This document shows, in pieces, positions 9,630 through 64,000 of a stretch of 64,000 nucleotides of DNA. The translations under genes and the position numbers were made by a program. How positions within the stretch are numbered: the stretch's first letter is position 1; each line of letters starts with the position of its first letter. The stretch is from a virus. The notes under the pieces were generated by a model. The model did no database searches. It was not told the DNA's origin and saw only the letters and a program-made list of their open reading frames with translations. The stretch lies in IMG/VR virus record IMGVR_UViG_3300042691_014285, positions 1-64,000 of that record, one strand, 5' to 3'.

Positions 9630-9632
9630 CTA

Positions 9633-10289: not shown

Positions 10290-10319
10290 TTTGTCATGCT
10301 CCTTTTTTTGTTATTGTTT

Positions 10320-12966: not shown

Positions 12967-12985
12967 TACCCCACCCATTTCTAAA

Positions 12986-13665: not shown

Positions 13666-13678
13666 TATATCCTTATGG

Positions 13679-13864: not shown

Positions 13865-13882
13865 TTTACACCCCTTTGTTTT

Positions 13883-25963: not shown

Positions 25964-26436
25964 TATATCTCCGTAAACTCAATGCTCATATCAACATAGT
26001 CTGAAACCTTTGTTCTATTAATAATTGTTTTAGAAAAATCAGTTATAAACACATGATATGTTTTAGACCTGTTCTGTGCTGTAACAAATATTCCTAATGG
26101 CTGTGATCCAAAGCCTGAGTCTACATTAAGTCCTGAAGATACAATCTTTAAGTAAATAGGCAGTCCTGCGTTAGACTTATAAAATGACTCAAGCCAAGCA
26201 GCGCTATAAAAACCATCAACACACTCAGAATGCTTTGATGGAACATATTTCCAAGAACAAGAAATATTATTTTTTTGAGCAACAACATATTTTCTCATTT
26301 TGCCATTGGCCATGCGGGATTGTGTTTCAATTAACTCTGTAGAAATATCAATGGCATCTCTATTATGATCTGTTATCTTATACCAAGTGTTACCATCAAT
26401 AGAGATCTGTATTCCTGCATCAATTAAATATGCCAT
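25963..26436 (-). CDS. Distal tail-like protein (by position)
   Basis: 157 residues, beta-rich (GIQISIDGNTWYKIT, SVSDYVDMSIEFTEI-type closing strand). It follows the tape measure and overlaps both neighbours by 1 bp, where siphoviruses place the distal tail protein joining tube to tip. Sequence alone does not prove the family. Confidence 0.55.
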   Translation of the reverse strand: MAYLIDAGIQISIDGNTWYKITDHNRDAIDISTELIETQSRMANGKMRKYVVAQKNNISCSWKYVPSKHSECVDGFYSAAWLESFYKSNAGLPIYLKIVSSGLNVDSGFGSQPLGIFVTAQNRSKTYHVFITDFSKTIINRTKVSDYVDMSIEFTEI

Positions 26437-47494: not shown

Positions 47495-50440
47495 CTATGC
47501 TTTTATATCTCCAGATAGTAACCATGCATCTGTTGCTACCTTTGTAAGTGTAGCAGATGAGTAGAGTGCTCTTAGAGTATTTCCTGGTGCTGCATAGATT
47601 GTTACTCCAGCTGCTGCTACAAAGTTTGCTCCACCTGCTCCAGATGATTGCCAGAAACTAATTGATGTTCCTACTGGAAAAGCAGTTGTTGCCATAGTTG
47701 GAACCGTTACTGCATATGCTCCTGAAATTTGAATTAACTGATCTCTCAGAGCAAGCCCACCTGTTGATAAGTTGTAGGCTGCTCCAATTGTAGTTGTTGT
47801 AGTTGTTAGTGATGGTACACCAGCTTTTGTCTGAGTACCGTCTGTAAACGCTACACCTGAAGCAGAGGCTGTAATTAAACCTGATGCTGTAACTGCTGCT
47901 GCATTTACAGTGCCTGTGAATGTTGGTGATGCTAGAGGTGCTTTATTTCCAAGTGCAGTTGTAATGGTTGCTGCGTAGTTTGCATCATCACCAAGTGCTG
48001 CTGCGAGTTCATCAAGAGTGTTAAGTGCTGCTGGTGCACCAGTTGTTAAAATAGCAAGTTCTTGCTGAACGAAACTTGTTGTAGCAACTTGTGTTGTATT
48101 AGTTCCAGTTGCTGCAAGTGGTGCAGTTGGTGTTCCAGTAAGAGCTGGAGATGCTAATGGTGCCTTAAGTCCTAGGTCTGTAGTAAGACCTGAAATTTTA
48201 GACTGAGCAATTCCTGCTGCTGAAGCAATATCTCCATCAACAATTGTTCCATCTGCAATCATTCCTGATGTAACAGTTCCTGCTGGAAGAGTTACAGTGC
48301 CTGTAAATGTAGGTGATGCAAGTGGAGCCTTAAGAGCAAGTGCTGTTGATGTAGCATCTGAAATTGGCTTAAGTGCATCTGATGTATTGTCTGCGTTACC
48401 AAGGCCAACCATAGACTTGGTTACACCAGAAACGGTGCCAGTAAATGTTGGTGAGGCAATTGGGGCTTTAAGATCAAGTGCTGCTTGTGTAGCGCTTGAT
48501 ATTGGTTTTAGAGAATCTGTTGTGTTGTCAACGTTAGCAAGACCTACCATTGTCTTAGTTATACCAGCAACGGTGCCAGTAAATGTTGGAGATTCAAGTG
48601 TAGCGTAACCTGAAATTAGTGCTCCTGTAGGTATTGTAACTGTTCCTGTAAATGTTGGTGAGGCAATTGGGGCACGTAGACCAAGAGCAGTTTGTGTTGC
48701 TGTTGAAACTGGCTTTGCAGTATCTGCTGTGTTATCAACGTTTCCAAGACCTACGTGTGCTTTTGTAACACCAGAAACTGTTCCTGTAAATGTTGGTGAA
48801 GCTAGTGGAGCATATGTAGATGCTGCTGTAGAAGATGCAAGCTTAAGATCAAGCTGTGTTTGTGTAGCAGTTGAGATTGGTTTGTTTGCGTCTGTTGTGT
48901 TATCAACATTTCCAAGGCCAACGTGTGCTTTTGTAACACCAGCAACTGTTCCTGTGAATGTTGGAGAAGAAAGTGGAGCGTATGTTGTGCTAGCAGCTAC
49001 TGCTCCAAGCTTTGAAGCAAGTTGTGTTTGAATATTTTCAGTTAATCCATCAAGGTATCCAATTTCAGTATTAGATACTGAACCAACAGTTAATGATGTT
49101 GCTTCAAGTGCACCAACTGCAAGGTCATCAAGTGATCCTTGTCCAAAATTAACAGTAGTTGTTGGTGCATCAGCAACTCCCTTAAACAGTTTCCATTTTG
49201 CATCAGATGAGTCCTTTACAAAACCTTGATGTTTAGCTGTTCCATCGTTGTATGAGCCTACAAAACCAATATCTACAAGGTTGGCAGCATTACCACTACC
49301 AAGATAAATTACTGGGTCTTCAACTGTAAGATTTGTTGTGTTTACAGTTGCACTTGTTCCAGAAACTGTTAAGTTACCGTCAACAATTAAATCATTGCTA
49401 ACTGTAAGGTTGACTGCAGTTGCTGTACCAGTTAATGCTGGGCTAGCAAGAGGTGCCTTAAGATCAAGTGCTGTTTGTGTAGCGGTTGAAACTGGCTTTG
49501 CTGCATCTGAAGTATTATTTACATCTGCAAGTCCAACATGTGCCTTTGTTACACCGCTTACAGTTCCAGTAAATGTTGGGGATGCGATAGGTGCTTTAAG
49601 GTCAAGCGCTGCTTGTGTGGCTGTTGAGATTTGCTTATTTGCGTCTGATGTATCGTCTACGCTTGTAAGGCCAACCATTGCTTTTGTAATACCAGATACA
49701 GTTCCTGTAAATGTTGGGGAAGCAATTGTGGCTCTAAGATTAATTTGATTTTGAACATTAGCTGAAAGTCCATTAAGGTATCCAATTTCAGTATCGTCAA
49801 CGTTTGCAACTTTTGCCTGGAATGCTGTTGCATCAACGGCAAGTGAAATTGTGTTTCCAGGATCACTGTATGTCTTTAAAAGACCATTTCCAGCAACTAT
49901 AGCAGTGTCAATAGCATCCTGTGAAAGTTCTGCAATGTCTGCTGAGTTTGCCTTTAAATTCAGTGCAGTCTGTGTAGCTGTAGAAACAGGCTTATCAGCA
50001 TCTGATGTATTGTCAACATTTCCAAGACCAACATCTCCCTTTACCAATCCTGCTGGAGATGTAATAGTTTTATTTGTTAAAGTTTGTGTTCCTGTTGTTG
50101 TAACTAAAAGTGAAGTATCTGCAATACCGTGGATGGCTGTTGTATCTGCTTGGTGGTTTGAAAGGTTTGTGGCAACTGTTGTAAAGAAAGCTGGATCATC
50201 GCCAATTGCTGCTGCAAGCTCATCAAGAGAGTTGAGTAGTCCTGGCGCACCTGCAATTGTTGTAGCAAGGTCAACGAAGTATGCTAGGTTTACCCAGTGG
50301 TTTACTCCATCACCAATCTTAAATTTATTTGTGTCTGACTCATAACCAATTTCACCTATTGCTAGAATTGGCCCATTTCCACTATTTGTAGAGATCCACT
50401 GCGCTGCAGTGCCTCTACGTTGTTGCATTCTTGTTGCCAT
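47495..50440 (-). CDS. Repeat-rich tail fibre protein
   Basis: 981 residues. The N-terminus (RRGTAAQW, IGEIGYESDTNKFKIGDG) matches the adapter found at the start of many phage fibre and tropism proteins. Seven copies of a unit of about 45-60 residues follow, with core VGLGNVDNTSDA.KP and TATQTALDLKAP, joined by SPTFTGTV linkers; together they would make a long trimeric shaft. The C-terminal 90 residues are a different beta domain that may be the tip. GGAGGAG precedes the ATG. Likely receptor-binding or side fibre. Confidence 0.8.
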   Translation of the reverse strand: MATRMQQRRGTAAQWISTNSGNGPILAIGEIGYESDTNKFKIGDGVNHWVNLAYFVDLATTIAGAPGLLNSLDELAAAIGDDPAFFTTVATNLSNHQADTTAIHGIADTSLLVTTTGTQTLTNKTITSPAGLVKGDVGLGNVDNTSDADKPVSTATQTALNLKANSADIAELSQDAIDTAIVAGNGLLKTYSDPGNTISLAVDATAFQAKVANVDDTEIGYLNGLSANVQNQINLRATIASPTFTGTVSGITKAMVGLTSVDDTSDANKQISTATQAALDLKAPIASPTFTGTVSGVTKAHVGLADVNNTSDAAKPVSTATQTALDLKAPLASPALTGTATAVNLTVSNDLIVDGNLTVSGTSATVNTTNLTVEDPVIYLGSGNAANLVDIGFVGSYNDGTAKHQGFVKDSSDAKWKLFKGVADAPTTTVNFGQGSLDDLAVGALEATSLTVGSVSNTEIGYLDGLTENIQTQLASKLGAVAASTTYAPLSSPTFTGTVAGVTKAHVGLGNVDNTTDANKPISTATQTQLDLKLASSTAASTYAPLASPTFTGTVSGVTKAHVGLGNVDNTADTAKPVSTATQTALGLRAPIASPTFTGTVTIPTGALISGYATLESPTFTGTVAGITKTMVGLANVDNTTDSLKPISSATQAALDLKAPIASPTFTGTVSGVTKSMVGLGNADNTSDALKPISDATSTALALKAPLASPTFTGTVTLPAGTVTSGMIADGTIVDGDIASAAGIAQSKISGLTTDLGLKAPLASPALTGTPTAPLAATGTNTTQVATTSFVQQELAILTTGAPAALNTLDELAAALGDDANYAATITTALGNKAPLASPTFTGTVNAAAVTASGLITASASGVAFTDGTQTKAGVPSLTTTTTTIGAAYNLSTGGLALRDQLIQISGAYAVTVPTMATTAFPVGTSISFWQSSGAGGANFVAAAGVTIYAAPGNTLRALYSSATLTKVATDAWLLSGDIKA

Positions 50441-50956: not shown

Positions 50957-52924
50957 TTACTTTAGTAGTGTTCCAACAACAGTGACTGTTGAGGAGTTGT
51001 TAGCAGTAGTTACTAGAAGTTGTACATTTGATCCGCTGACGCCTGCTGATATAGTCATCGCTGAACCATTTGTTCCAATTGTTCCATACTCTGTTATTGC
51101 AATATTGTCAGCTGTATCAAGTGTTAATAAAACCTTTGATATTTCTGTATGGACTCCATAAGCGGTCTTAACCAAGAACTCTGCTGAACGATAGTCTGCC
51201 TTAGCAAAAGCGTATGCTACATTTGAAGCACTTGCTGTTGGTACAGAAATTGTTGCAGCTACCTGAGTTGCAAGAGAGTTGATATCAACTTCTGTAAAGT
51301 TTGGAACAACTGCTTCAAGAGCAGTTACTGCACGAGCATTTGTGAAGTACTTATTTGTACCTTCTGCAAGGTCAGTTGTTGTAGAATCTGCTACACCGTT
51401 TTCTGCGGTAATAACAAGACCTGTACCTGAACCAGTGATTGTAATGTTAGTCTTTGTAGCACTAGTCAAAAGATCTGCTGCTGAAGACTTGGCACGAGCA
51501 TCTGTGAAGTATAGGCTTCCTGATTCTGCTACATCAGAAGTAACAAGTGCATCTGCGTGAGCAATTGCAGCTGCTTGTGCAGCGTTAGCCTTTGAAGTAG
51601 CGTCAGCTGCTGCTGTAGAAACTGATGCAGCATCTCCAGAAACTCTTAGTGCTGCTTCTGCAGCAACCTTTGAAGTAGCATCTGCAGCTGCAGTTGATAC
51701 TGAGGCTGCATCTCCAGAAACTCTTAGTGCTGCTTCTGCTGCTACCTTAGATGTTGCATCTGAGGCTGCGGTGCTGACTGATGCAGCATCACCTGATACT
51801 CTAAGTGCTGCTTCTGAAGCAACCTTTGCTGTTGCATCGGCTGATGCTGTTGCCTCTGCTGCTGTCTGGGCTGCGTCTGCTTCTGCCTTAGCAAATGCTG
51901 TTGTAGCAATCTGAGTTGTATCAGTATTTGCTGCTGCAGTCGGTGCTGTTGGTACACCAGTAAGCGCTGGTGAAGCAAGTGGGGCTTTTGTTCCCAAAGC
52001 TGTTGTAATAGTTGTTGTGTAATTAGCGTCATCATTAATTGCTGCTGCTAATTCATTTAATGTATTAAGAAGTGCTGGTGCACCATCAACAAGATTATCT
52101 ACTGCGGTTCCAATTGCTGTGTTGCGGTTTGTAACTTCTGTTGCAATTGCTGCTGAGATTGCTGATGCACTTGCTGACGCTGCTGCGTCAATTGCTTCCG
52201 TCTTGGCAGTTGCTACGTTTGCAGTAGTTGCAAGAAGAGCCGTGTTTGCAATTCCATGAACGTTTGTTGTGTCTGATTCGTGTGAAGAAAGTGCTGCTGC
52301 AGCTGTTGCCTCTGCTGCTGCTTGAGCGGCGTTGGCCTTAGATGTTGCATCTGCTGATGCAGTTGCTACTGAGGCTGAGTCGCCTGATACTCTAAGTGCT
52401 GCTTCTGCAGCGACTTTAGATGTAGCGTCTGATGCTGCTGTTGCTTCTGCTGCAGTTTTAGCTGCTGCTGCTGCACCGTATGCGTCATAAGTATTTGCTG
52501 TTACAGATACTGCACCTGTTGAATCATTATATGAAAGACCAGTTCCAACATTGTTTCCAATGGCATCTTGTGCTCTTTCATCTGTGAAGTAAAGGTTTGT
52601 TCCTTCTGCAAGATCTGCAGTGTCATGGTTTGAAAGGCTTGAAACTGTTCCAGTTACGTCACCTGTTACGTTGCCTGTTAAATTACCAGTTACGTTACCT
52701 GTTAAGGCTGCTGTAACTGTTCCTGCTGCAAAGTTACCATTAGCATCACGCTTTACAACTGTGTTTGCAGTGTTAGCAGATGTTGATGTACCGCCAATAA
52801 GACCAACTATGTAGTCTTGATCTGCTTGCTTCTTTGTAAGAATGTCAAAATTGTTGACTGTAGCTGTTGTACCTTCAACAATGAGCCCATTCTTTACCTT
52901 AAAGTCTTTATTTACTGTTGCCAT
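50957..52924 (-). CDS. Repeat-rich tail fibre protein with Ala-rich shaft
   Basis: 655 residues. It begins ATVNKDFKVKNGLIVEG, shared with the short fibre next to it. Then TGNVTGNLTGNVTG repeats, an Ala-rich shaft of AAEALRVSGDAASVSTAA units, fibre motifs such as DLAEGTNLYFTDERA (three variants), and a closing beta domain containing EYGTI, shared with the 148-residue neighbour. AAGGAG precedes the ATG. The repeats make the DNA low in complexity and prone to recombination. Confidence 0.75.
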   Translation of the reverse strand: MATVNKDFKVKNGLIVEGTTATVNNFDILTKKQADQDYIVGLIGGTSTSANTANTVVKRDANGNFAAGTVTAALTGNVTGNLTGNVTGDVTGTVSSLSNHDTADLAEGTNLYFTDERAQDAIGNNVGTGLSYNDSTGAVSVTANTYDAYGAAAAAKTAAEATAASDATSKVAAEAALRVSGDSASVATASADATSKANAAQAAAEATAAAALSSHESDTTNVHGIANTALLATTANVATAKTEAIDAAASASASAISAAIATEVTNRNTAIGTAVDNLVDGAPALLNTLNELAAAINDDANYTTTITTALGTKAPLASPALTGVPTAPTAAANTDTTQIATTAFAKAEADAAQTAAEATASADATAKVASEAALRVSGDAASVSTAASDATSKVAAEAALRVSGDAASVSTAAADATSKVAAEAALRVSGDAASVSTAAADATSKANAAQAAAIAHADALVTSDVAESGSLYFTDARAKSSAADLLTSATKTNITITGSGTGLVITAENGVADSTTTDLAEGTNKYFTNARAVTALEAVVPNFTEVDINSLATQVAATISVPTASASNVAYAFAKADYRSAEFLVKTAYGVHTEISKVLLTLDTADNIAITEYGTIGTNGSAMTISAGVSGSNVQLLVTTANNSSTVTVVGTLLK

Positions 52925-54202: not shown

Positions 54203-54775
54203 ATGAGAAGAGATAAGAAGGTTTGGATTGGAATCCTTGCACTACTTGGGTTGGTTGCTCCTTTGAGTAATTCAGCCAATGCTTTAAATACCGAAAATAA
54301 TCTAAGTAAAACAGAAGTTCTTGCTATGCCAACCGCCAAAGCGGTTTTTTTGCTTTCTAAGCCTAAAAGTCTGGTAGCAGTAAAAAAAGACTTAAACGTT
54401 CTGCACAAGTATCAAGATGCCATTAGTCTGACAGATCGTCAACTAAAGGAACTTCTTCATGCCGTTGGTTTCCGTGGAGAGGGCCTTGTAAAAGCTTGGG
54501 CGGTAGCTAAGAAAGAATCTAATGGTCGTCCAATGGCTTTTAATGGTAATGAAAAGACTGGGGACAATTCTTATGGTATATTCCAGATAAATATGATTGG
54601 AATGCTAAAGGATGGTCGCAAAGAAAAGTTTGGCATTAACTTTAACAGTGAATTGTTAAACCCTGTTATTAATGCACAGGTTGCCTATCATATGAGTAAT
54701 GGTGGTAAAGATTGGTCTGCTTGGCATGGAATAACGCCAAAGACTAAGGTTTGGATGAAGAAGTTTCCTATTTAA
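54203..54775 (+). CDS. Secreted lytic transglycosylase-like lysin
   Basis: 190 residues. Residues 1-28 form a signal peptide (basic start, hydrophobic core WIGILALLGLV, cleavage-like SANA). The C-terminal half has the lysozyme/transglycosylase pattern: catalytic E105 in AKKESNGRP, then DNSYGIFQINM (122-131) and a Trp-rich end. It would cleave peptidoglycan after Sec export. AGGAGG lies eight nt before the ATG. No holin gene is next to it; export through a signal peptide makes a holin less necessary. It converges with the oxygenase gene, and the two stop codons overlap. Confidence 0.85.
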   Translation: MRRDKKVWIGILALLGLVAPLSNSANALNTENNLSKTEVLAMPTAKAVFLLSKPKSLVAVKKDLNVLHKYQDAISLTDRQLKELLHAVGFRGEGLVKAWAVAKKESNGRPMAFNGNEKTGDNSYGIFQINMIGMLKDGRKEKFGINFNSELLNPVINAQVAYHMSNGGKDWSAWHGITPKTKVWMKKFPI

Positions 54776-55347
54776 AAAGGAAGATCTTTATTTAACGTTA
54801 CTGGGTATTCGTCATTACCCCTCATAAAGATAGTTGAAAAATATCTTGTAGTATCATTTAGGACTGGTAATGAGCCATGCAGTATTTCTCCTCCGTGAAT
54901 AAGGGCAGATCCTGCTTTTGGTTTAATTGTTATTCCTAATTCTGGATAGTCAATCTCTCCACCAAGATAGTCATTATTATAGTAAATTACGATGCCGTAT
55001 CCAAGATAATACCCTTGTGGGGTTGTGTCATTATCACGATGCTGACCAATTGCTTCTTCCTCTTTAAATCTAGATATTTTTATTTCTTTTTCACAGTAAT
55101 AATATGATGGGAATATGTAATCAACTTTATCAAAAATAGCAGTCTTGCAAAATTCATTATTTTCACCAAGGAATAAGCTTTTGCCATACCAAAAATCATT
55201 CTCATCACCAATATAGTTTTTGTCATGCCATTGATCTTCAGTTGCTTGATTAATAATAGCCAAAATTGACTCTAGCTCTAAAGAATCTAAAAAGTTTTCA
55301 ATTTCATAAACATCTTCAGCAAGTTTGTTAATTTTAAAATTATACAT
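54772..55347 (-). CDS. 2-oxoglutarate/Fe(II) oxygenase (array member 8)
   Basis: 191 residues from the ATG at 55347. Metal ligands H103-x-D105 (GQHRDND) and H157 (ILHGS), with R168 for 2-oxoglutarate. The strand NNDYLGGEIDYP is the signature shared by all eight members. Prolyl-4-hydroxylase-like double-stranded beta-helix. It lies last in the operon, with stop codons overlapping those of the lysin on the other strand. A TTG four codons upstream is an alternative start. Substrate unknown. Confidence 0.85.
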   Translation of the reverse strand: MYNFKINKLAEDVYEIENFLDSLELESILAIINQATEDQWHDKNYIGDENDFWYGKSLFLGENNEFCKTAIFDKVDYIFPSYYYCEKEIKISRFKEEEAIGQHRDNDTTPQGYYLGYGIVIYYNNDYLGGEIDYPELGITIKPKAGSALIHGGEILHGSLPVLNDTTRYFSTIFMRGNDEYPVTLNKDLPF

Positions 55348-55351
55348 AGGG

Positions 55352-56020
55352 CTAACCAAATTTACTACTATTAATATGATTTAGCTCAATATGATTAATG
55401 TTAACATGGCTTGGTAGATCAGATACCCAGCGAATGCACTCTGCCATATCCTCAGCGGTAATAGCACTATCACGTCTTTCTTCTTGTGTATCAATTGTGC
55501 CTGGACAAATTTCAGTTATTTTAATACCATATTGAGGAAATTCTAGCCTCATTGTATCTACCAATGCCATCTGACCTCTTTTAGCATTAATGTAATTGCC
55601 TCCAGAACGGTACGGAACCTTACCACCCAATGAGCTAACAAAAATAATGGTTGGGTTAGTGGACTTTTCCATTGCTGGTACAAATAACTGAGAAATATAC
55701 ATTGGCCCTGTTACATTAATATCATATGCAATTCTAAAGTTTGCTGGTGTTTCATTAATAATCATTGTTGGACTAGATCCACCACCTGCATTATTAACTA
55801 GCAAGTCTAAAGTGATGTCTTTATATTTTTCAGCAAATAGTTTTATTTGGTCAGAGTCTGTAACATCTATCTGATAAATTTCAACATTGTCTGAAACAAG
55901 GTCTAACATTTTAGAGATATTTCTTGATGCTGCGATTACCTTGTATCCACTTTTTTCAAGAAGCTTTACGGTTGCTCTTCCAACACCCTTGCTTGCTCCA
56001 GTAACTATTGCTGTTTTCAA
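55352..56020 (-). CDS. Short-chain dehydrogenase/reductase
   Basis: 222 residues, a classical SDR. TGASKGVG (7-14) binds NAD(P), NNAG is at 76-79, and the catalytic set is S130, Y143 and K147 (YxxxK). Start is a TTG directly after the upstream TAA. It reduces or oxidises an alcohol or ketone; the substrate is unknown. It lies inside the oxygenase array, so it may act on the product of those enzymes, for example oxidising a new hydroxyl. SDR genes are unusual in phages. Confidence 0.88.
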   Translation of the reverse strand: MKTAIVTGASKGVGRATVKLLEKSGYKVIAASRNISKMLDLVSDNVEIYQIDVTDSDQIKLFAEKYKDITLDLLVNNAGGGSSPTMIINETPANFRIAYDINVTGPMYISQLFVPAMEKSTNPTIIFVSSLGGKVPYRSGGNYINAKRGQMALVDTMRLEFPQYGIKITEICPGTIDTQEERRDSAITAEDMAECIRWVSDLPSHVNINHIELNHINSSKFG

Positions 56021-56752
56021 TTACATGCTCTGACTAGAATTAAGGCTCATGTGGTTATGAATCCAGTGACCAGGAACCATAAACTTATACCCAGACTTAA
56101 CTACGTGTGCTGTGTGAAAGTATGGAGCGTATGCTGGAAATATAACAACGCTATTTGCTTTAGGTTTTAAACCAAAATCAATAGATTTATCAGCAACTGC
56201 AACATCATAGTCTAAGTCTACTGCTGGAGCACCTCTTACCCATCCATCAGAACTTGTCCATCCTCCATCATAATCTTTTAGCTGGAAAGAGATTTCTCCA
56301 CCCTCACAGTCATCATTGAGGTACATGACTAAAGAATATCTTAGGGTTTGGTCTCCATCTAATTGATCAAAGTGTGCCCCCATGCCCATTCCAGTATTAT
56401 ATTTTTTTATATTAAAGGTTGGAAAAAGCCTTGGCTCATCAAAATCCCCCAAAGAAGATGCGTAGTCTTTGCAAACATTGTACATCGTAGTCATAATAGC
56501 GTCATATATATATTTACTTTTTTCTGCTACTTCTCCACTAAGGTTGTTTATTGCGTTTACGTCAAATGTTTTTGTTTCTCCATAAATAAAAGTTTTGTCG
56601 TTAGAAGATGTCCAAGGGTTCCAAACATTTACACCTAACTCACTGTATTGCTCAAGAGTATCTAGATCTTTCCAAACCTTTTTAAAGGTATCAAAATCTT
56701 CTATTGCATCAGTATAGTAATAAGTTTTTGGATCTAGTTTTTCTACGTTCAC
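56021..56752 (-). CDS. 2-oxoglutarate/Fe(II) oxygenase (array member 7)
   Basis: 243 residues. H127-x-D129 (GAHFDQ), H213 (YFHTAH) and K223 at the 2-oxoglutarate position, ten residues after the last His as in the other members. Signature NDDCEGGEISF. An insert of about 30 residues precedes the distal His, longer than in its paralogues. N-terminal helical part to about residue 100. Substrate unknown. Confidence 0.85.
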   Translation of the reverse strand: MNVEKLDPKTYYYTDAIEDFDTFKKVWKDLDTLEQYSELGVNVWNPWTSSNDKTFIYGETKTFDVNAINNLSGEVAEKSKYIYDAIMTTMYNVCKDYASSLGDFDEPRLFPTFNIKKYNTGMGMGAHFDQLDGDQTLRYSLVMYLNDDCEGGEISFQLKDYDGGWTSSDGWVRGAPAVDLDYDVAVADKSIDFGLKPKANSVVIFPAYAPYFHTAHVVKSGYKFMVPGHWIHNHMSLNSSQSM

Positions 56753-56761
56753 CTGTTCTCC

Positions 56762-57421
56762 TTAGTATTTGTTGTTTTCATAGTGGTTTTTTTCTTTAAT
56801 AAATCCTACTATAACATATCTTATTGGTCCTTCTCCAACATGCTTTACTCCATGCTCGTGCTTATTGTCCCCTGGAAAAAACAACAAGTCTTTTGGCTTT
56901 GGTCTTAATGATATTCCAAGATTTGGAAAGAACAGCTCTCCTTCTACATAGTCATCATTTATATATATAATTGTTGCATATTTTATTGATGGGTCTGTAT
57001 GCTGATCTGTATGAGATTTTAGTTCAACTCCTTTTTGCATTCTTTGAATTGTTGCTAATCCACTTAACATTAATAAAGGATCTGAATCATCAACCATTGT
57101 TGATAATCTTTTATAAAAAACTTGCTGCTCTTTATGATGCTTTATGTTTAAATTTTTATCTGCCCAGTTTTGTGTGATTTCAAATTTTCCTTCAGCAACA
57201 AGGTTGTCTACATCATCTCTTCCAAACTTTTCCATACAAAATCTAGCAAGATTTGTTGTATATTCTATTTCCCAGTCTGCTTGTGATGCATTATCTATGC
57301 ATTTTAAAACAAAGTCTAGATCTTCATTTGTAAAAAAATCTTTAATCCAAAGAATTTCATCTGTAACTTCTTCAAATACAAAATTATTTTCTTTAAGTTT
57401 TTCTTTAAACTTTTCAAGCAT
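56762..57421 (-). CDS. 2-oxoglutarate/Fe(II) oxygenase (array member 6)
   Basis: 219 residues from the ATG at 57421, with GAGG six nt upstream and an 8-bp overlap with the preceding gene. H137-x-D139 (SHTDQH), H190 (HEHGVKH) and R201 for 2-oxoglutarate. Signature NDDYVEGELFFP followed by SLRPKPKDLLFFPGD, the usual final strands of prolyl-hydroxylase-like enzymes. Confidence 0.87.
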   Translation of the reverse strand: MLEKFKEKLKENNFVFEEVTDEILWIKDFFTNEDLDFVLKCIDNASQADWEIEYTTNLARFCMEKFGRDDVDNLVAEGKFEITQNWADKNLNIKHHKEQQVFYKRLSTMVDDSDPLLMLSGLATIQRMQKGVELKSHTDQHTDPSIKYATIIYINDDYVEGELFFPNLGISLRPKPKDLLFFPGDNKHEHGVKHVGEGPIRYVIVGFIKEKNHYENNKY

Positions 57422-58169
57422 TTGGCACCTCATTAGAGTTATACTTATTTCCGTCCTTGTCTAGCTTCCAGCCTTGCTTAAGCAATTCTTGCCATTCTGC
57501 TCTTTCAATTTCTTGTTTTGCTCTAGTTTCTTTCATTTCTGCAGCCCAGGCATCTCTTAATTCTTGTGGGTATGCATCTTCTTCTCTGTCGTCCCAAAAA
57601 GAACCAATTGTATATCTAACTCCCTTAGTAATAAGGCTTACCTCGTGCATGTTATTAAATCCACCATCAAAAGCAGCAAGCATTCCAACTTTAGGTTGTA
57701 GACTTATCTCTTGATCTGGGAACTGTAACATTCCACCATCAAAGTCATCGTTCAAATATAAGAATGCTGCATATCTACTTCTTGTAAATGCACCAGAGTG
57801 TCCGTGTTCGTCTGTGTTGTCAGAGTGTTTTCTTGCATACGCTCCTGGCTCCCACTTTTGTGTGTGATAACCAATTTGAGAAATTATTTTTGGATCAAGG
57901 TCGTGAACGCTTGCAACTGCATCAATAATTCCTTGTTTTATTTGTGAAAATATGTCACTTGGCAATCCTTCATTCTTTACATGCTCGTCGTCATCTTGTG
58001 GTAAAACAGAAGAGTATGATTCATAAAAAGATATAGGCATCCAGGTAATCAATTCAAGTTCTGCATGCTTGTCTAAAACTTTTACAAGTTTAGCAGCAGT
58101 TTCTGAATCAATAAAGTTTTCATAAACAACAATGTCTTTTGTTATTCTAGTTTTATTGGTTAAGTTCAT
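57414..58169 (-). CDS. 2-oxoglutarate/Fe(II) oxygenase (array member 5), with C-terminal helix
   Basis: 251 residues. H115-x-D117 (KHSDNT), H175 (NMHEVS) and R185. Signature NDDFDGGMLQFP, then SLQPKVGMLAAFDGG. Unlike the other members it has an extra C-terminal helical tail of about 50 residues (WAAEMKETRAKQEIERAEW), which may bind a partner. ATGA overlap with the upstream gene. Closest in layout to PKHD-type hydroxylases. Confidence 0.87.
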   Translation of the reverse strand: MNLTNKTRITKDIVVYENFIDSETAAKLVKVLDKHAELELITWMPISFYESYSSVLPQDDDEHVKNEGLPSDIFSQIKQGIIDAVASVHDLDPKIISQIGYHTQKWEPGAYARKHSDNTDEHGHSGAFTRSRYAAFLYLNDDFDGGMLQFPDQEISLQPKVGMLAAFDGGFNNMHEVSLITKGVRYTIGSFWDDREEDAYPQELRDAWAAEMKETRAKQEIERAEWQELLKQGWKLDKDGNKYNSNEVPNA

Positions 58170-59038
58170 TTTATTCTCACAGCTCCCTCTATCTCATTTC
58201 TTTGTGGGTTGTCTATTCTAAACTGCTCGTTCAGCTTTGGTTGCATGCTAGACCAAACATCTTTTCCAAATTCTTTTTCTTTCTCATACCATTCATCTGT
58301 TCCTTTTTGATATTTTTGCCAATACATTCTTGCTAAAAATTTGTTTTTGTTATAAGACGGCATAACCCCATGTAAGTATGGTTTGTCATCCTCTGTTAAG
58401 TAATCTGGGTGTCCTGATGGAAAAACTAAAAGATCTCCAGCTTCTGGCTTGTACTTAACAAGTTTGTCTCCCATAGCAAAGTCAATTTCTCCACCTTCAT
58501 AGTCATCATTAAAATAAATTGTACATGTTATTATAAACTTATATCCTGGAGCAGATCCTTGCTCTCTCATATAGTCTGAATGATATCTCATTCCATGTTG
58601 TTCTTCTTCGTTGCTGATATGATACTTTCCTATTGTTCCACCTGTCCATCTCCAGGTTGGAATAAGATCGCCTGATTCGTCTATGGACAATGACTCTAAA
58701 TCTACATCAATGTTATATTTTTTAATATAGTCTTCTGTAACTAAATGAAAGTTTTTCATCATTTCTATACCAAATTGTTTTTGGTTTTCTTCAATTTCTG
58801 TTTTTGTTTCAATGCTTTCTAAACCTCCATCTTTATAATCCATAGAAAAAGAAGGTGTCATTGGATTTAAATATTCTCCAAAAATAGACCACTTTGTCCA
58901 AGGATTAAAAAGTCTATCTTCTGACTCTATTAAAGAATCTGTTAAAACCTTATAAGATTTTGAAATATCTTTAAACATGTTTTTATAAACAAGAATATGT
59001 GGATATATCTCTACAGATTCAAGAGCTGGAGTAGTCAT
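58166..59038 (-). CDS. 2-oxoglutarate/Fe(II) oxygenase (array member 4)
   Basis: 290 residues, the longest member. H153-x-D155 (YHSDYM), H223 (YLHGVM) and K233 at the 2-oxoglutarate position. Signature NDDYEGGEIDFA, then YKPEAGDLLVFPSGH. A longer N-terminal helical domain (1-130) and acidic loops may set substrate choice. Start ATG directly follows the upstream stop (TAAATG). Confidence 0.86.
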   Translation of the reverse strand: MTTPALESVEIYPHILVYKNMFKDISKSYKVLTDSLIESEDRLFNPWTKWSIFGEYLNPMTPSFSMDYKDGGLESIETKTEIEENQKQFGIEMMKNFHLVTEDYIKKYNIDVDLESLSIDESGDLIPTWRWTGGTIGKYHISNEEEQHGMRYHSDYMREQGSAPGYKFIITCTIYFNDDYEGGEIDFAMGDKLVKYKPEAGDLLVFPSGHPDYLTEDDKPYLHGVMPSYNKNKFLARMYWQKYQKGTDEWYEKEKEFGKDVWSSMQPKLNEQFRIDNPQRNEIEGAVRIK

Positions 59039-59713
59039 TTATGGTTTCCTGTCTCCAGTGTGCTCTGTAATTTCCCAGAAAAATGGGCATGTAAATCTTA
59101 ATCCACTCTTTATCTCAGTCACTCCGTGAATATAGTTTTTGTCTCCTGGGAAGAAGTAAGCTGCACCTTTTTTTGGTTTAAACTGTACACCTTGTAGTGG
59201 GAAATACAGTTCTCCTCCCTCATAGTCTTCATTTAAATAGAACAAACTAGATAAATCATAATTAGGAAAATCGTTTGGAAGTCCAGCGTCTGGGCCATCG
59301 TGAAGTTCTTTGTCTGCGTGAGGTTTTTGAAATTGTCCTGGAAGCCACTTTACTATAGTGGTACCTGTAGGGATAACCTTTACTTTGTAAAACTCTTCTA
59401 CTATTGGTTGTAGTCTTTGAAATAGTCCAGCAATGACTGGGGAAATGTTTGGATCGTTTTTATCTAGGCTTGGTTGAGTTGCTACTCTATCTTTCCAATA
59501 ATCAGAATCATAAACAACCGTTCCATTTTCATTAACATGACTTTGTGTTACATCCCAAATTGTCAAAGATTTTGCAGATTTTTCTAAAAACTCTATTTCT
59601 TCTTGAGTCATAAAGTTTTCTAGCTCAACGATCATGTCTTTGCTATCACCAAACCAGCCAGATGGTGTGAGTGAAGCCTTTCTAACTACAACAGAAGCAT
59701 CCATTTTATCCAT
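59039..59713 (-). CDS. 2-oxoglutarate/Fe(II) oxygenase (array member 3)
   Basis: 224 residues. H132-x-D134 (KPHADK), H196 (YIHGVT) and R206 (GLRF). Signature NEDYEGGELYFP, then FKPKKGAAYFFPGD; the WLPGQFQKPHAD lead is typical of prolyl-4-hydroxylase-like enzymes. TATAAT ends six nt before its ATG, so this gene may also be expressed from an internal leaderless promoter. Confidence 0.88.
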   Translation of the reverse strand: MDKMDASVVVRKASLTPSGWFGDSKDMIVELENFMTQEEIEFLEKSAKSLTIWDVTQSHVNENGTVVYDSDYWKDRVATQPSLDKNDPNISPVIAGLFQRLQPIVEEFYKVKVIPTGTTIVKWLPGQFQKPHADKELHDGPDAGLPNDFPNYDLSSLFYLNEDYEGGELYFPLQGVQFKPKKGAAYFFPGDKNYIHGVTEIKSGLRFTCPFFWEITEHTGDRKP

Positions 59714-59715
59714 AA

Positions 59716-60444
59716 TTAGATTATACCATTTCCCTTGTTTGATGTATTATCAGTAACAGAAAGACGTAAAACCTTAGTTTCGTGAGAACCCGTACTTTCA
59801 CCTTTTTCATTTACTGCATCTCTATACCAGTCAGTCCATTGTCCAGACTTGTTGATTTCTTGTGCAGCTTCACCATACGACTGATGAGCCATCTGCCTTT
59901 TTCTATCTACATCTGAATAATCAATTATTTGAATTGATGTATTGTCCATTGCCGTCAAAGAAATTGGAATTATTGTAGCAATTGGGGTTCCTGCTTTTAT
60001 AGTAATTTCCTTGTTTGCAGATCTTGCTTTAATTGCTAATGGAAAACCAGTATCAAGCCAAGATGTAGATATTAAAGATGACATTGTTTCAAAATCATCA
60101 TTAAAGTAATTAACTGGATTAATTGTAAGCATGCTAACGTTTTGCTCAGATCTAAAAGTTAGGCCAGTATGTAGGCTAACTGTAGACTGCCCTCTTCCAG
60201 TATATGTAAAGTCTGAACCTTCTAGTATAGTTACATTCTCTGAACTTGTATCATTTATACCGTTCCAAATAAACTTAATGTCTTCAGTACATGAAAGACT
60301 CCAGCCAACCATATTCGCTTGTGTAACTGGAAAACATCTATAGGCATGCTTTTCTGGAGTTACATCCATCCAATCTCTTTTAATTGACATTGGAGAAAGT
60401 ATGATTTTTGAATCTGGAAATCTTTCAGCTGATATATTAAGCAT
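59716..60444 (-). CDS. DUF6065-like cupin/beta-sandwich protein (copy B)
   Basis: 242 residues, beta-rich. SIKRDWMD near residue 20, HAYRCFPVTQANMVGW near 33-48, FIWNG near 58, then HTGLTFRSEQNV and FPLAIKARSAN..ITIKAGTPIATIIPI. This fits DUF6065-type proteins of unknown function. The second copy at 61109-61885 shares the last block. It lies between two oxygenases, so it may be a partner, sensor or substrate-presenting protein. Confidence 0.65.
   Translation of the reverse strand: MLNISAERFPDSKIILSPMSIKRDWMDVTPEKHAYRCFPVTQANMVGWSLSCTEDIKFIWNGINDTSSENVTILEGSDFTYTGRGQSTVSLHTGLTFRSEQNVSMLTINPVNYFNDDFETMSSLISTSWLDTGFPLAIKARSANKEITIKAGTPIATIIPISLTAMDNTSIQIIDYSDVDRKRQMAHQSYGEAAQEINKSGQWTDWYRDAVNEKGESTGSHETKVLRLSVTDNTSNKGNGII
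59720..59728 (-). promoter_or_regulatory. Possible internal leaderless promoter in the oxygenase array
   Basis: Minus strand TGGTATAAT; six nt separate TATAAT from the ATG at 59713. It lies in the last codons of the upstream gene (AAT GGT ATA ATC TAA), so chance is possible, but the spacing matches the other leaderless cases exactly. Confidence 0.45.
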
Positions 60445-61100
60445 TAGTCTTTGTCTACCATATACATTTCGTTAGTGTGAAACTTTTTGTTATAATCAAG
60501 CATTGTTACAATAGAATACTTTGTTCCTGAAATAACTGGCATTGCACGATGAGGATACATGAAGTTTGATGGAAAAATAAATAAATCTCCTGCATCTGCC
60601 TTAATGTCTAGGTTCTGGAGTCTAAAGAAAAGTGAACCGCCTTCATAGTCATCATTTGGGTATGCAACAAGTGACACTGTGCAGTTATAAGAAAAACCAT
60701 GATCATGGTGTTCTTGAAAGTGTTGTCCTGGTCCATATTTAATAAAATTAAAAGCTTCCCAATACTTTAAATCCATTATGTTGTAGTCTTTTCTGTAATC
60801 ATCAACACATGGAGACTTAACATCATATAGATCTTGCCAAAGCTCTTGTAGTTTTATTGAGTCTGGTGTTTTGTTTTGTTCAATATCAGTTTTCTTATAC
60901 TTAAAATCTACACAGTCTCTGTAGTCTGGAATTAGCTGCTGGTATCCAACATATGCTGGTTGCCAAGTAAATTGTTCTTTTGAACCTAGTGGCTTTACAA
61001 CAGATTCAATTCTGTTTATCACATCAATATCTTTATTAATGACACCTTTATAGCATACAATACCATTACCATAGTTAACCTTTTCTGTCCAAGTTTGCAT
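60444..61100 (-). CDS. 2-oxoglutarate/Fe(II) oxygenase (array member 2)
   Basis: 218 residues. H131-x-D133 (QEHHDHG), H184 (YPHRAM) and K194 (GTKYS). Signature NDDYEGGSLFFR. It is the sister of member 1 (61869-62597): both have EAFNF.KY, a HADHG/HHDHG core, YN.TVS, PSN and ISGTKY. Each sister is followed by a DUF6065-like gene, so the pair of genes was duplicated as a unit. Confidence 0.87.
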   Translation of the reverse strand: MQTWTEKVNYGNGIVCYKGVINKDIDVINRIESVVKPLGSKEQFTWQPAYVGYQQLIPDYRDCVDFKYKKTDIEQNKTPDSIKLQELWQDLYDVKSPCVDDYRKDYNIMDLKYWEAFNFIKYGPGQHFQEHHDHGFSYNCTVSLVAYPNDDYEGGSLFFRLQNLDIKADAGDLFIFPSNFMYPHRAMPVISGTKYSIVTMLDYNKKFHTNEMYMVDKD

Positions 61101-61108
61101 TTTTCTCC

Positions 61109-61885
61109 CTATTTATATTCTCTTCTAGACCAAACTTTATTTTTATAAATACCGCCGTCTGGTTGGCGATAAAAATTTGCATTGGCTATCATTTTAGCAT
61201 ATATCTTTTCTTGATTTTGAAACTCTATCTCATGGCTCCAGTTTTCTCTTTTAAATGGTAAAATTTGGACATATGGAGTCCCTGCTGGTATTGTTCCTTC
61301 CCAGCCTTCTGCAATAAAAAATGGAAAGGTACCAAGCAGGTGAACACTGTCATTATCAACAACACCAGTTGTATTAATAAATGGAAGATCAAATCTATTC
61401 ATAGGTGTCATAAATAATGCACTATATCCTTCTGGAAGTTCAAATCCCCAATCTGGATACCAGGCAAAATGATCTTTGTAAAATCCTTTTGGGTGCTCAA
61501 ACTGTGGCATAGCAAGTCTTTTTCCACAAAAATCTTGATGTCTTTTATCTTCTATCTTAACATCTATTGATCCTGTCTCAGTTTTAAAAAAAGTAAGGTC
61601 ACAAGGAGTTCTTAATACATATCCTGTTGAAAACCCATCCATAATTGCTGGACAAGCTTTCCATGTAGGTATTTTTCCATAGTCATCTGTAGTTCCTTCT
61701 TTTGGAAAAGGACAAACTTCTTTTGGTGCTTTGTAGTATTCACCAGTTGGCATTTTTGCAAATCTGTCGGCATCTTTATACCATTGTGGTATTTCAGACT
61801 GTGTTGTTTTAGGCACTGATTTACTATCCTTGTTTAACCAAGGCCTAAAAGATCTAAAGATTACTAAATTATCTTTTAGACTCAT
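61109..61885 (-). CDS. DUF6065-like cupin/beta-sandwich protein (copy A)
   Basis: 258 residues, beta-rich, with IPQWYKDADRFA, PTWKACPAIMDGFSTGYVL, then LFMTPMNRFDLPF and FFIAEGWEGTIPAGTPYVQI. The block from TPMNR to the AGTP strand lines up with NPVNYF...AGTPIATIIPI in copy B, although overall identity looks low. The N-terminus differs. It overlaps oxygenase member 1 by 17 bp. Function unknown. Confidence 0.6.
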   Translation of the reverse strand: MSLKDNLVIFRSFRPWLNKDSKSVPKTTQSEIPQWYKDADRFAKMPTGEYYKAPKEVCPFPKEGTTDDYGKIPTWKACPAIMDGFSTGYVLRTPCDLTFFKTETGSIDVKIEDKRHQDFCGKRLAMPQFEHPKGFYKDHFAWYPDWGFELPEGYSALFMTPMNRFDLPFINTTGVVDNDSVHLLGTFPFFIAEGWEGTIPAGTPYVQILPFKRENWSHEIEFQNQEKIYAKMIANANFYRQPDGGIYKNKVWSRREYK

Positions 61886-62597
61886 GATGATGCCCTAATA
61901 AATTAATATCTGTCATAATTACAACACAATATTTTGTTCCAGATATCATTGGAAGAGATGCATGTTCATATATATAGTTTGATGGGAAAATTGCTATGTC
62001 TCCAACTTTTGGTGTTAGTGTGTATCCATCTAATCTTGGAAATTTAATTTCTCCACCTTCGTAGTCGTCATTTATATATATAACTGCAGAAACTGTAGTA
62101 TTGTATGCTGGTCCATGGTCGGCATGAATATTAAAGTGCTTACCCTGTCCCTCATACTTTACAAAATTAAAAGCTTCATAGTATATAACATTTATTCCCC
62201 AATATTTTGCATAGTCATCTATGCATAGTTTTAATTTTTGATAAATCTCTTCGTGTAAATCAATTAGTTCACCATTAAACTCATCTCGTGGACCAAGATT
62301 TTCTTGCTTATATCTAAAATCTACAGCATCTCTTGCTTTTTTTATTGGTGTAGTAGCATTGGTTACTTGTGCTTCTGACCACTTATACTTTCTACCATTA
62401 GACAAATTGGACTCAAGAATATTGATGTATCTTTTAGAGTCCTCCAAAGAAAACGTATTTCTGTATATATTTAATCCAAGTCCTGGATTTTCTATTACAA
62501 TATTTTTTTCAGATATATCTCTATTAACCCTATTTGATACAGTCTCAGATCTATCTTTAGTAAACCATGGGTTTTCATTTTCATCATAAGTGTTCAT
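61869..62597 (-). CDS. 2-oxoglutarate/Fe(II) oxygenase (array member 1)
   Basis: 242 residues. H158-x-D160 (NIHADHG), H212 (YEHASL) and K222 (GTKYC). Signature NDDYEGGEIKFP, then TLTPKVGDIAIFPSN. First gene of the array operon, read from the promoter at 62617-62645 with AAGGGG before its ATG. Sister of member 2. Substrate unknown; see the finding on the neighbouring Phe/Pro protein. Confidence 0.88.
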   Translation of the reverse strand: MNTYDENENPWFTKDRSETVSNRVNRDISEKNIVIENPGLGLNIYRNTFSLEDSKRYINILESNLSNGRKYKWSEAQVTNATTPIKKARDAVDFRYKQENLGPRDEFNGELIDLHEEIYQKLKLCIDDYAKYWGINVIYYEAFNFVKYEGQGKHFNIHADHGPAYNTTVSAVIYINDDYEGGEIKFPRLDGYTLTPKVGDIAIFPSNYIYEHASLPMISGTKYCVVIMTDINLLGHHHESKR

Positions 62598-62616: not shown

Positions 62617-62645
62617 ATTATACACTACCTTTATCTTTTTGTAAA
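62617..62645 (-). promoter_or_regulatory. Sigma-70-like promoter of the oxygenase operon
   Basis: Minus strand TTTACA (62640-62645), 17-bp spacer, TATAAT (62617-62622), about 20 nt before the first ATG. It is the best full promoter match in the window, so the array is probably expressed as its own unit. Confidence 0.7.
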
Positions 62646-62698: not shown

Positions 62699-62727
62699 AA
62701 AACACAAAAGGCCAAACAATGTTGGCC
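62699..62727 (-). terminator. Terminator between the Phe/Pro fibre gene and the oxygenase operon
   Basis: Minus strand GGCCAA, loop, TTGGCC (6 bp), followed by TTTTGTGTTTTA. It lies just past the fibre stop codon, so the fibre gene and the oxygenases are probably separate transcripts despite being neighbours. Confidence 0.65.
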
Positions 62728-62750: not shown

Positions 62751-63716
62751 TTACTGTACACCTGGAAGTGTAAAGTATGGGAAGTAAGGGTTATTTGCAG
62801 GGAAGTATGGGAAGTACGGTGGGAAGAATGGGAAGTAAGGGAAGTAAGGGAAGAATGGAGGGAAGAATGGGAAGAACGGGAAGTAAGGGAAGAAAGGTGG
62901 GAAGAACGGGAAGTATGGGAAGAACGGGAAGAAAGGTGGGAAGAACGGGAAGAATGGGAAGAACGGAAAGAAAGGTGGGAAAAATGGTGGGAAGAATGGG
63001 AAGAACGGTGGGAAGAACGGTGGGAAGAACGGAGGAAAGAACGGTGGGAAGAAAGGTGGGAAAAACGGAAAGAATGGGAAAAATGGCGGAAAGAATGGAC
63101 CGAATGTAGAAACAACAGAATTAGATGGTTGTGATGCTGCAGATGTTCCATTTGCATTTACTGCGGTAACGGTATAAGTATAAGTTCCAGCAGCAATTTC
63201 TGTAATAGTAATTGGTGAAGCAGAACCAGTTGCAGTACGTCCAGATGAAGATGTTACAGTGTGGAATGGTGAAATTAAAGCTGAGTTTCCAGTATTTGGA
63301 CTTGTAAATATAACAGATACTACACCAGATGTTCCACCAGATGCAGATCCAATAGTTGGAGCGTTTGGCTTTGATGTTGGAACAACGGCTGCTGAGGCAG
63401 CAGATGCTGGTGATGATCCTATTGCATTTCTTGCAGTGACTGTAAAGGTATAATTTGCTGGAGTGCCAGTAGTTGACATTCCTGTAACAACTATTGGCGA
63501 AGATGCGCCAGTGGCTGTAAATCCACCAGCATTAGATGTGACTGTGTAATCAATGATTGGCATCTTGCCATCAAAAGCTGGTGGTGTAAATGCTACTGAT
63601 ACCTGTCCGCTACTATATGTCCGACCTGAGCCTTGAACAGTAACTGCACCAATAGTAGGAGCTTGTGGGACTGATCTTTTTGAAGATTCGGTGGTACCAT
63701 TATTAATTTGGCTCAT
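62751..63716 (-). CDS. Fn3-domain virion protein with a 116-residue Phe/Pro repeat tail
   Basis: 321 residues. Residues 15-200 are two Fn3/Ig-like domains (PQAPTIGAVTVQGSG..., KPNAPTIGSASGGTSG...). Residues 206-321 are FFP and FFPP units with Tyr variants: 45 of 116 residues are Pro and most of the rest Phe or Tyr. The chain ends PYFPYFTLPGVQ, nearly the same as the fibre at 14381-17788. There is no signal peptide. It is probably a fibre or head/tail decoration. TACAAT ends seven nt before the ATG, which suggests leaderless expression. Confidence 0.8.
   Translation of the reverse strand: MSQINNGTTESSKRSVPQAPTIGAVTVQGSGRTYSSGQVSVAFTPPAFDGKMPIIDYTVTSNAGGFTATGASSPIVVTGMSTTGTPANYTFTVTARNAIGSSPASAASAAVVPTSKPNAPTIGSASGGTSGVVSVIFTSPNTGNSALISPFHTVTSSSGRTATGSASPITITEIAAGTYTYTVTAVNANGTSAASQPSNSVVSTFGPFFPPFFPFFPFFPPFFPPFFPPFFPPFFPPFFPFFPPFFPPFFPFFPFFPFFPPFFPFFPYFPFFPPFFPYFPFFPFFPPFFPYFPYFPFFPPYFPYFPANNPYFPYFTLPGVQ
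62754..63101 (-). repeat. Phe/Pro-coding tandem repeat (9- and 12-bp units)
   Basis: 348 bp of 9-bp (FFP) and 12-bp (FFPP) units, GGGAAGAAY on the plus strand with GGT inserts. All units are multiples of three, so gain or loss of units keeps the frame. The long open frames in the other readings of this tract, rich in Glu/Trp/Arg or Ser/His, are by-products of the repeat. Confidence 0.9.
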
Positions 63717-63756: not shown

Positions 63757-64000
63757 TTATCTAACAAATATGTACATATTTTTAGCGACCATTGAGGCAT
63801 CGTTATCTGTCAGTATTTCTGGGAAAGCTCCATAATTCCTAACCATATCGTTTTCTACCACAAAAGTATGCTCTAGCGAAATATCATATGAAAATTGATA
63901 TTTTAGGTTTGCAGCAAAAGTAGTTGGGCTAATACCTGAATCTGGGATATAGGTCTTGAACCAAACTTCCGTATTATTACTAAATGTTGTTAAGACTATA
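63757..64000 (-). CDS. Unknown protein, C-terminal 81 residues
   Basis: The window edge cuts the 5' part. The visible end is beta-rich and aromatic (TEVWFKTYIPDSGISPTTFA; LEHTFVVENDMVRNYGAFPE) and finishes MYIFVR. Location upstream of a fibre gene suggests a virion protein, but no family is recognised. Confidence 0.55.
   Translation of the reverse strand, partial: IVLTTFSNNTEVWFKTYIPDSGISPTTFAANLKYQFSYDISLEHTFVVENDMVRNYGAFPEILTDNDASMVAKNMYIFVR

Follow-up and report, generated by a model that had tools for sequence, protein, structure and literature searches.

We analysed a 64,000-nucleotide stretch of viral DNA (hereafter, the window), corresponding to positions 1 to 64,000 of the IMG/VR record IMGVR_UViG_3300042691_014285, an uncultivated virus record of 80,207 bp. 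Eleven genes of the minus strand follow each other from position 62597 down to 54772, in the order OxA, DUFa, OxB, DUFb, OxC, OxD, OxE, OxF, OxG, SDR, and OxH, with intergenic spacings ranging from an overlap of 20 bp to a gap of 9 bp. The eight Ox genes are intact open reading frames (ORFs) encoding 2-oxoglutarate (2OG)-Fe(II) oxygenases of the prolyl-4-hydroxylase (P4H) type (PF13640). Directly upstream of OxA, on the same strand, lies a gene encoding a protein with [FY][FY]P repeats (the FFP protein). This gene, whose product is the probable substrate of the array, was missed by the initial annotation, which covered coordinates 54772-62597 and stopped just short of it. The genes and signals of the locus are as follows:

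62751-63716, minus strand: FFP protein, proposed substrate; fn3-type N-terminal region (one PF00041, E 7.2e-8), then 30 [FY][FY]P repeats
62710-62727, minus strand: terminator-like hairpin between the FFP gene and the array
62617-62645, minus strand: sigma-70-like promoter TTTACA-17-TATAAT directly upstream of OxA, 11/12 consensus positions
61869-62597, minus strand: OxA, first array gene, 242 aa; PF13640 E 4e-11; H158xD160, H212, K222
61109-61885, minus strand: DUFa, phrog_7084 protein (E 7.6e-31) with a predicted dUTPase-like fold
60444-61100, minus strand: OxB, 2OG-Fe(II) oxygenase, nearest paralogue of OxA (43% identity); PF13640 E 3.3e-12
59716-60444, minus strand: DUFb, DUF6065 protein; PF19541 109.9 bits (cut-off 26.6); phrog_7084 E 1.9e-9
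59039-59713, minus strand: OxC, 2OG-Fe(II) oxygenase; PF13640 E 9.2e-9 and motif
58166-59038, minus strand: OxD, 2OG-Fe(II) oxygenase, optional in relatives; PF13640 E 1.3e-9
57414-58169, minus strand: OxE, 2OG-Fe(II) oxygenase; PF13640 E 4.6e-9 and motif
56762-57433, minus strand: OxF, 2OG-Fe(II) oxygenase; PF13640 E 1.6e-9 and motif
56021-56752, minus strand: OxG, 2OG-Fe(II) oxygenase; PF13640 E 7.5e-9 and motif
55352-56020, minus strand: SDR, short-chain dehydrogenase/reductase; PF00106 E 1.5e-39
54772-55359, minus strand: OxH, optional in relatives; PF13640 E 1.3e-4, 23.3 bits (gathering score 27); phrog_61 E 1.6e-13

With 41 Pro in 100 aa, the FFP protein exceeds every other ORF of the window in proline content. 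A glycine-rich plus-strand ORF opposite its repeats (62777-63109) was judged antisense, the FFP frame being continuous with the fn3 region. A table of FFP codon positions, conditioned on the FFP translation, establishes no more than the existence of silent changes and was not used as coding evidence. The promoter-like match upstream of OxA was the best of 36 in a 10-kb region, and since shuffled sequences gave as many (36.4 +/- 6.7), we consider it a consensus match only; for hairpins, 7 were found against 5.2 +/- 2.3 in shuffles. Together, the terminator-like hairpin and the promoter-like match suggest that the FFP gene and the array may be transcribed separately.

Oxygenase subfamilies, predicted fold, and conservation of the array

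Seven of the eight oxygenases passed the gathering score of PF13640 (2OG-FeII_Oxy_3), with OxH below it. Seven also matched phrog_61 at E <= 4e-10; OxF matched phrog_2297 and phrog_3531, with no phrog_61 match at E <= 0.1. Pairwise identities among the eight were of about 23 to 43% (blastp). The HxD motif, the distal His, and an Arg/Lys 10 or 11 residues further on, all described in the initial annotation, were invariant in the eight family alignments when scored among the rows with a letter at the position, window rows included (OxA, 53 rows; OxB, 49; OxC, 52, with 51 at the distal His and Arg; OxD, 33; OxE, 52, with 50 at the Arg; OxF, 47; OxG, 46; OxH, 16). Median dN/dS across the oxygenase families ranged from 0.08 to 0.39, which corresponds to purifying selection. 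With ORFs intact and motifs invariant, the array genes are thus not decaying, and no sign was found of a set of pseudogenes. In a 63-row tree, for which the program gave long-branch warnings, every one of the eight subfamilies formed a single clade (weakly supported for OxH, 66/82), and three pairs were recovered: OxA with OxB (100/98), OxC with OxE (94/92), and OxD with OxG (98/96). Given these eight subfamilies, it is plausible that the members act on different sites.

The structure of OxA was modelled by AlphaFold2 from a 50-row alignment (pLDDT 90.6). The model shows the fold of P4Hs and of prolyl hydroxylase domain (PHD) enzymes, a double-stranded beta-helix, with Z of about 21. In structural comparisons (VIA), it matched 6f0w (Z 21.2, 3.0 A over 200 residues), 3gze, an algal P4H in complex with (Ser-Pro)5 (Z 20.8, 2.1 A over 175), and 4iw3 (Z 20.4, 2.8 A over 190), and Foldseek placed PHD2 first and listed PBCV-1 vCPH. 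The top structural matches are thus prolyl hydroxylases, several of these structures containing a proline substrate (PHD2:HIF, algal P4H:(Ser-Pro)5, P. putida P4H:EF-Tu). HIF PHD2/EGLN1 and the algal and P. putida enzymes are the closest solved folds, but 6f0w, 3gze, and 4iw3 share only 12 to 17% identity with OxA, and they act on cellular proteins or on Ser-Pro peptides of plant type. The best match to a profile built from OxA/OxB relatives was the P4H of B. anthracis (5hv0, E 1.1e-11), followed by other P4Hs including that of PBCV-1 (5c5t), so the affiliation to P4H families that the initial annotation had raised was borne out by profile searches. The same profile also matched LH3 (collagen lysyl hydroxylase, 3e-6), a PKHD-type hydroxylase, prolyl 3-hydroxylase 1 (P3H1, 8e-5), and PiuC. 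The bacterial and viral collagen P4Hs (B. anthracis 5hv0 and PBCV-1 vCPH 5c5t) have the same domain type and fold as OxA, but they are single solved enzymes, whereas up to 13 paralogues are found near one FFP-repeat gene here.

A search of viral contigs with OxA confirmed 460 relatives, from which 80 loci were kept. Array genes were present in all 80, mostly in the same order and with OxD and OxH optional, which indicates that the eight-gene array described initially does not result from chance. Changes of order were found in nine loci with a block OxB-DUFb-DUFa, in three with OxF moved, and in one rearranged locus (L069). In the latter, the array is split and accompanied by an inverted OxB-DUFb-OxC copy (4361-7680), which reflects either a true rearrangement or a chimeric contig. 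Two loci, L007 and L008, were nearly identical to the window. Where 9 kb or more of downstream sequence was available (43 loci), the number of oxygenases varied from 6 to 10, in answer to the question of copy number left by the initial annotation. Its statement that phages often carry one or two such genes finds no support in these viruses: a 20.7-kb locus of a divergent array class (L467) carries 13 array-family ORFs, and PMC9602691 reports 24 2OG-Fe(II) oxygenase genes in cyanophage S-SCSM1, without investigating their function. The search of GTDB genomes for OxA relatives gave 105 pattern matches, none of which was confirmed. Separately, a glutathione-peroxidase/redoxin-like gene was found near the arrays in 24 loci, including L156 (6713-7369), by clustering of neighbours and the Pfam assignment of one member.

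Linkage between the array and FFP-repeat genes

The number of repeats required to call an FFP ORF was at least six in the scan starting from the array, at least five in the random stretches and the direction test, and at least four, with His also allowed, in the divergent array class. Starting from the array, an FFP ORF was found upstream in 69 of the 80 OxA loci, and the other 11 have merely 293 to 1,122 bp of upstream sequence. Among the loci offering 4 kb or more of upstream sequence, all 48 had an FFP ORF, 18 a collagen-like ORF, and 15 a tail-fibre motif. For the reverse scan, viral contigs were searched with a degenerate DNA pattern for FFP, which gave at least 120 stretches; record lengths were available for 80 of the 120, and the 32 records reaching 30 kb were retained. 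PF13640 was present in 30 of these 32 records and in three or more copies in 27. As a control, 37 records of at least 30 kb were taken among 96 listed of 136 stretches obtained with random words: two of them had PF13640, in a single copy each, and none had the FFP pattern. In the 136 random stretches as a whole, there was one array-family oxygenase and no FFP ORF.

The association may also extend beyond the window's own type of phage. The window's portal was matched in half (16) of the 32 records from the FFP-first scan, in G050 only at E 2e-4, and not in the other 16; six of the latter span 68 to 106 kb, although a portal-negative record may be a mere fragment. A third scan started from the portal; of its 80 loci, the 33 with records of 11 kb or longer were used. 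Seven of them had six or more OxA-family matches, and all seven had FFP, which was found in nine records overall. G001 combines FFP with one OxA-family match, G003 has FFP and none, and G030 has three at the contig edge and no FFP. PF13640 was present in one (G001) of the 13 portal-first records tested out of the 33.

The linkage is directional. Taking all 120 FFP-first stretches, an array-family oxygenase was found within 4 kb downstream for 45 of the 56 FFP ORFs having at least 4 kb of downstream sequence, against 2 of the 37 having at least 4 kb upstream when the upstream side was considered. Most close FFP-oxygenase pairs (66/75) share the same strand, and 34 of the 75 are separated by 150 bp or less. 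The divergent array class, retrieved by means of a distant OxB (77 of 80 OxB-first loci analysed), showed the same neighbourhood, with an FFP ORF within 4 kb in 48 of the 51 loci having at least 2.5 kb upstream. The three misses (L512 to L514) each encode a 3-repeat FFP protein directly followed by two ORFs, which in L512 (8009-9569) are oxygenases of the PhyH and TauD families. Other 2OG families were thus observed at FFP loci, namely, PhyH, TauD, and 2OG-FeII_Oxy_5 (L512 8009-9569, L119 2-835, and L114 129-743), so different enzyme families share one type of neighbourhood. In GTDB genomes, the FFP pattern occurred in 22 stretches, seven of which had an ORF with at least five repeats. Four of these are long FFP arrays (L429, L445, L434, and L444, the last two sharing FFP sequence and metagenome-assembled genome); three have array-family oxygenases, and L444 has a DUF6065-type match. 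In the remaining three (L432, L439, and L442), the repeat ORFs look unrelated or noncoding, with neither an oxygenase nor a DUF6065 match. We base the argument for a functional association on the recurrence in two array classes, on the scan made from the FFP side, and on the one-sided placement.

FFP tail proteins as candidate substrates

The array lies in a tail module, and the window encodes further tail-type proteins, two of which are candidate substrates:

63757-64000 (to 64467 in the full record), minus strand: collagen-like tail-fibre gene, second candidate substrate, adjoining the FFP gene on its upstream side; PF01391 E 2.9e-7 and tail-fibre PHROGs
14381-17788, minus strand: second FFP protein, fn3-containing, candidate substrate near a minor tail gene; 7 C-terminal FFP units
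47495-50440, minus strand: tail-fibre-type gene past the far end of the array; Mtd_N domain and tail-fibre PHROG matches
50957-52924, minus strand: tail-fibre-type gene past the far end of the array; phrog_454 (E 1.4e-21) among its tail-fibre PHROG matches, no Pfam match

P4H enzymes act on the proline-rich repeats of collagen and of plant cell-wall proteins. With enzymes of this type placed beside proline repeats, hydroxylation of those repeats is the most economical reading, and since the pairing of array and FFP gene recurs in many viral contigs, the enzymes probably modify the phage's own tail proteins. From these sequence data, we consider it fairly probable that the array is a virion-protein hydroxylation system acting on FFP-repeat, and sometimes collagen-like, tail proteins. 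The interpretation given in the initial annotation is borne out in part: its proposal of a dedicated modification system, here one acting on proteins, has good support from the conservation of the array as a unit, the prolyl-hydroxylase fold, and the linkage to a tail-type repeat protein.

Several observations weigh against hydroxylation of FFP proteins by the array. A large share of the contigs are closely related, and some turn up in more than one scan (e.g., L113/L083, L162/L066, and L110/L208), so the counts are not independent and the Fisher test comparing PF13640 in the FFP-first and random records (30/32 versus 2/37; P = 7e-15) overstates significance, and the random records are unmatched for habitat or phage type. 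No array-family oxygenase was found within 4 kb downstream of 11 of the 56 FFP ORFs. Four records (G003, G038, G063, and G102, the last of 14.6 kb) have FFP DNA and no phrog_61 match, and three others (G001, G043, and G047) have one such match each (PF13640: one to two copies). Collagen-like genes occur in 20 of the 80 OxA loci, and a collagen-like protein was accordingly rejected as the universal partner. The predicted fold applies to OxA, the member that was modelled, and the other seven enzymes are assigned by hidden Markov model and motif. As LH3 and PiuC are among the profile matches, lysine or other targets are possible. Finally, a loose clustering placed tail-fibre-type genes close to the arrays or to FFP genes at 136 of 200 loci, which indicates that a shared tail island is real and could account for the linkage.

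This last point opens the possibility that FFP genes and arrays are passengers residing together in variable tail-fibre modules, the enzymes modifying other virion proteins, a host surface glycan, or a small molecule. The location of the array in such a module, the variable gene content of its relatives (optional OxD and OxH, changes of order), and the few FFP records devoid of oxygenase would all fit. Yet common residence would not readily explain why the linkage is one-sided (45/56 downstream versus 2/37 upstream), why 34 of the 75 close pairs lie within 150 bp, why it is repeated in two array classes and in records that do not match the window's portal, or why FFP is found in 48 of 48 loci when collagen-like ORFs and tail-fibre motifs are found in 18 and 15. 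We therefore regard this explanation as unlikely, though worth keeping in mind.

DUFa and DUFb had been described initially as cupin-like, and this description was not upheld. Both match phrog_7084, and DUFb passes PF19541 (DUF6065) far above the cut-off, while DUFa has no PF19541 match at E <= 1. No Pfam cupin was matched by either at E <= 1, and no cupin appears among the fold matches listed for DUFa, a list that covers DUFa only and does not exclude a cupin fold. The model of DUFa (pLDDT 93.9) instead resembles dUTPases, whose fold is presumably the one named beta-clip: all 50 matches listed are dUTPases (VIA, Z 8.6 to 10.1), including 2y8c (Z 10.1, 4.0 A over 130 residues) and 3t60 (Z 9.6, 2.5 A over 116 of 258 residues). 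Since the best Foldseek value against dUTPases is weak (E 2.6e-3), the predicted likeness is moderate. It raises the question of nucleotide or DNA hypermodification, in which the 2OG oxygenases and dUTPase-like DUFa/DUFb would act on thymine or another base, and OxC, OxF, and OxH do show Tet_JBP (PF12851) matches. These are weak, at 20.3, 14.7, and 17.5 bits, respectively, for a gathering score of 34.9, and the other five oxygenases are unlisted. Moreover, DUFa has no match to any Pfam family at E <= 1, dUTPase included, DUFb has none to a Pfam dUTPase at E <= 1, the nearest folds of OxA are prolyl hydroxylases, and the array lies among tail-type genes. DUF6065/phrog_7084 proteins are also found in haloarchaeal viruses (HF1), where they are about 24 to 31% identical to DUFa, but there the DUFa relative (L424, 4836-5720) is encoded near virion genes with no annotated 2OG oxygenase within 5 kb. 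A role in DNA modification thus seems very improbable.

If FFP proteins are the substrates, the eight P4H-type enzymes would hydroxylate the adjacent FFP repeats during infection, relying on 2OG, O2, and Fe(II). The hydroxylated residues would most likely be the FFP prolines, possibly with other side chains, and collagen-like or second FFP tail proteins would also be modified in phages that have them. Hydroxylation would take place before or during virion assembly, the subfamilies dividing residues or repeat contexts between them, and the FFP protein would then be part of the virion. This may yield a stiffer or more soluble form of a highly hydrophobic stalk, or furnish it with hydroxyl groups available for adhesion or later decoration. 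The DUF6065 pair could be a substrate-presenting or structural partner, and SDR possibly acts on an oxidised product. More broadly, we see an even balance of arguments on whether several phage lineages make multiply hydroxylated (hydroxyproline-rich) FFP tail stalks through a relay of up to 13 enzymes with DUF6065 partners. Such a pathway would be comparable in logic to the maturation of collagen, extensin, or mussel adhesive.

FFP proteins vary at their ends. Those of L070 (6915-8297), L079 (8241-9239), and L034 (8485-9462) finish in variable tips, several of which are cysteine-rich, and the protein of L070 has a long additional domain of Hint/intein-like appearance.

Relation to known phage oxygenases and genome setting

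Both the kind of enzyme and its high copy number are already known in phages. Seven of the eight window oxygenases belong to the same broad family (PHROG 61) as those of cyanophages, from which they are distant: among the matches listed, identities are 24 to 35% for OxB (40 of 118 records) and 25 to 41% for OxA (12 of 261). In S-SCSM1, seven 2OG genes (240-243, 248, 249, and 251) flank tail-fibre genes (L447, 205799-228827 of the record, at 4882-13904), one of which, SSCSM1_245, carries proline/arginine repeats; a long Arg-Pro repeat is also found in SSCSM1_19 (record 23462-31273). However, the other 17 copies are spread over the genome, most of them not near a proline-repeat protein. In S-T4 and ACG-2014f, no proline-repeat protein was encoded within about 12 kb of the 2OG genes examined, which again weighs against a general pairing. 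The extension of our proposal to cyanophages was therefore not adopted and is kept as a lead.

For cyanophage 2OG oxygenases, PMC3037559 proposes effects on 2OG levels or DNA repair, and PMC9602691 also places them in a metabolic frame. Applied to the window, the enzymes would burn 2OG or serve as auxiliary metabolic genes. This seems the least probable of the roles considered, as eight diverged enzymes that keep their subfamily identity suit substrate specificity better than bulk 2OG use and no photosynthesis or nitrogen gene was found among the annotated neighbours. The portal of the window is about 46% identical to those of Streptomyces phages, e.g., LilMartin, and the portal relatives listed are mostly Streptomyces phages, to which the cyanobacterial NtcA logic does not carry over. 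This portal similarity suggests a virion of actinophage type.

In the open-access literature searched, we found no prior account of several such enzymes encoded contiguously and linked to an FFP-repeat protein and DUF6065. There, no paper combined hydroxyproline, 2-oxoglutarate, bacteriophage, and virion, none contained the word DUF6065 or any of three FFPPFFP-type strings, and nothing on phage tail hydroxylation appeared by title among the papers listed. The FFP protein had no tblastn match in 50,697 phage records with the low-complexity filter on. PMC12774648 reports that Phold finds many phage proteins similar to human EGLN3, mostly annotated as 2OG-Fe(II) oxygenases.

Two other genes of the window recur among the loci. 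A ribonucleotide reductase with a B12-dependent (class II) insertion domain (45312-47345, minus strand) lies close to the portal gene, and a similar ORF cluster is found in 38 loci. A lysozyme-like SLT_3 protein (54203-54775, plus strand) is convergent with the end of the array, and its cluster is present in 30 loci.

The co-occurrence of array and FFP genes in several scans and controls provides a concrete and testable candidate substrate for these enzymes. If confirmed, the relay could explain why many aquatic phages hoard 2OG oxygenases and would provide a new set of hydroxylases for peptide chemistry. It would also mean that phage tail proteins mature through several oxygen-requiring steps, which would bear on adsorption and host range.

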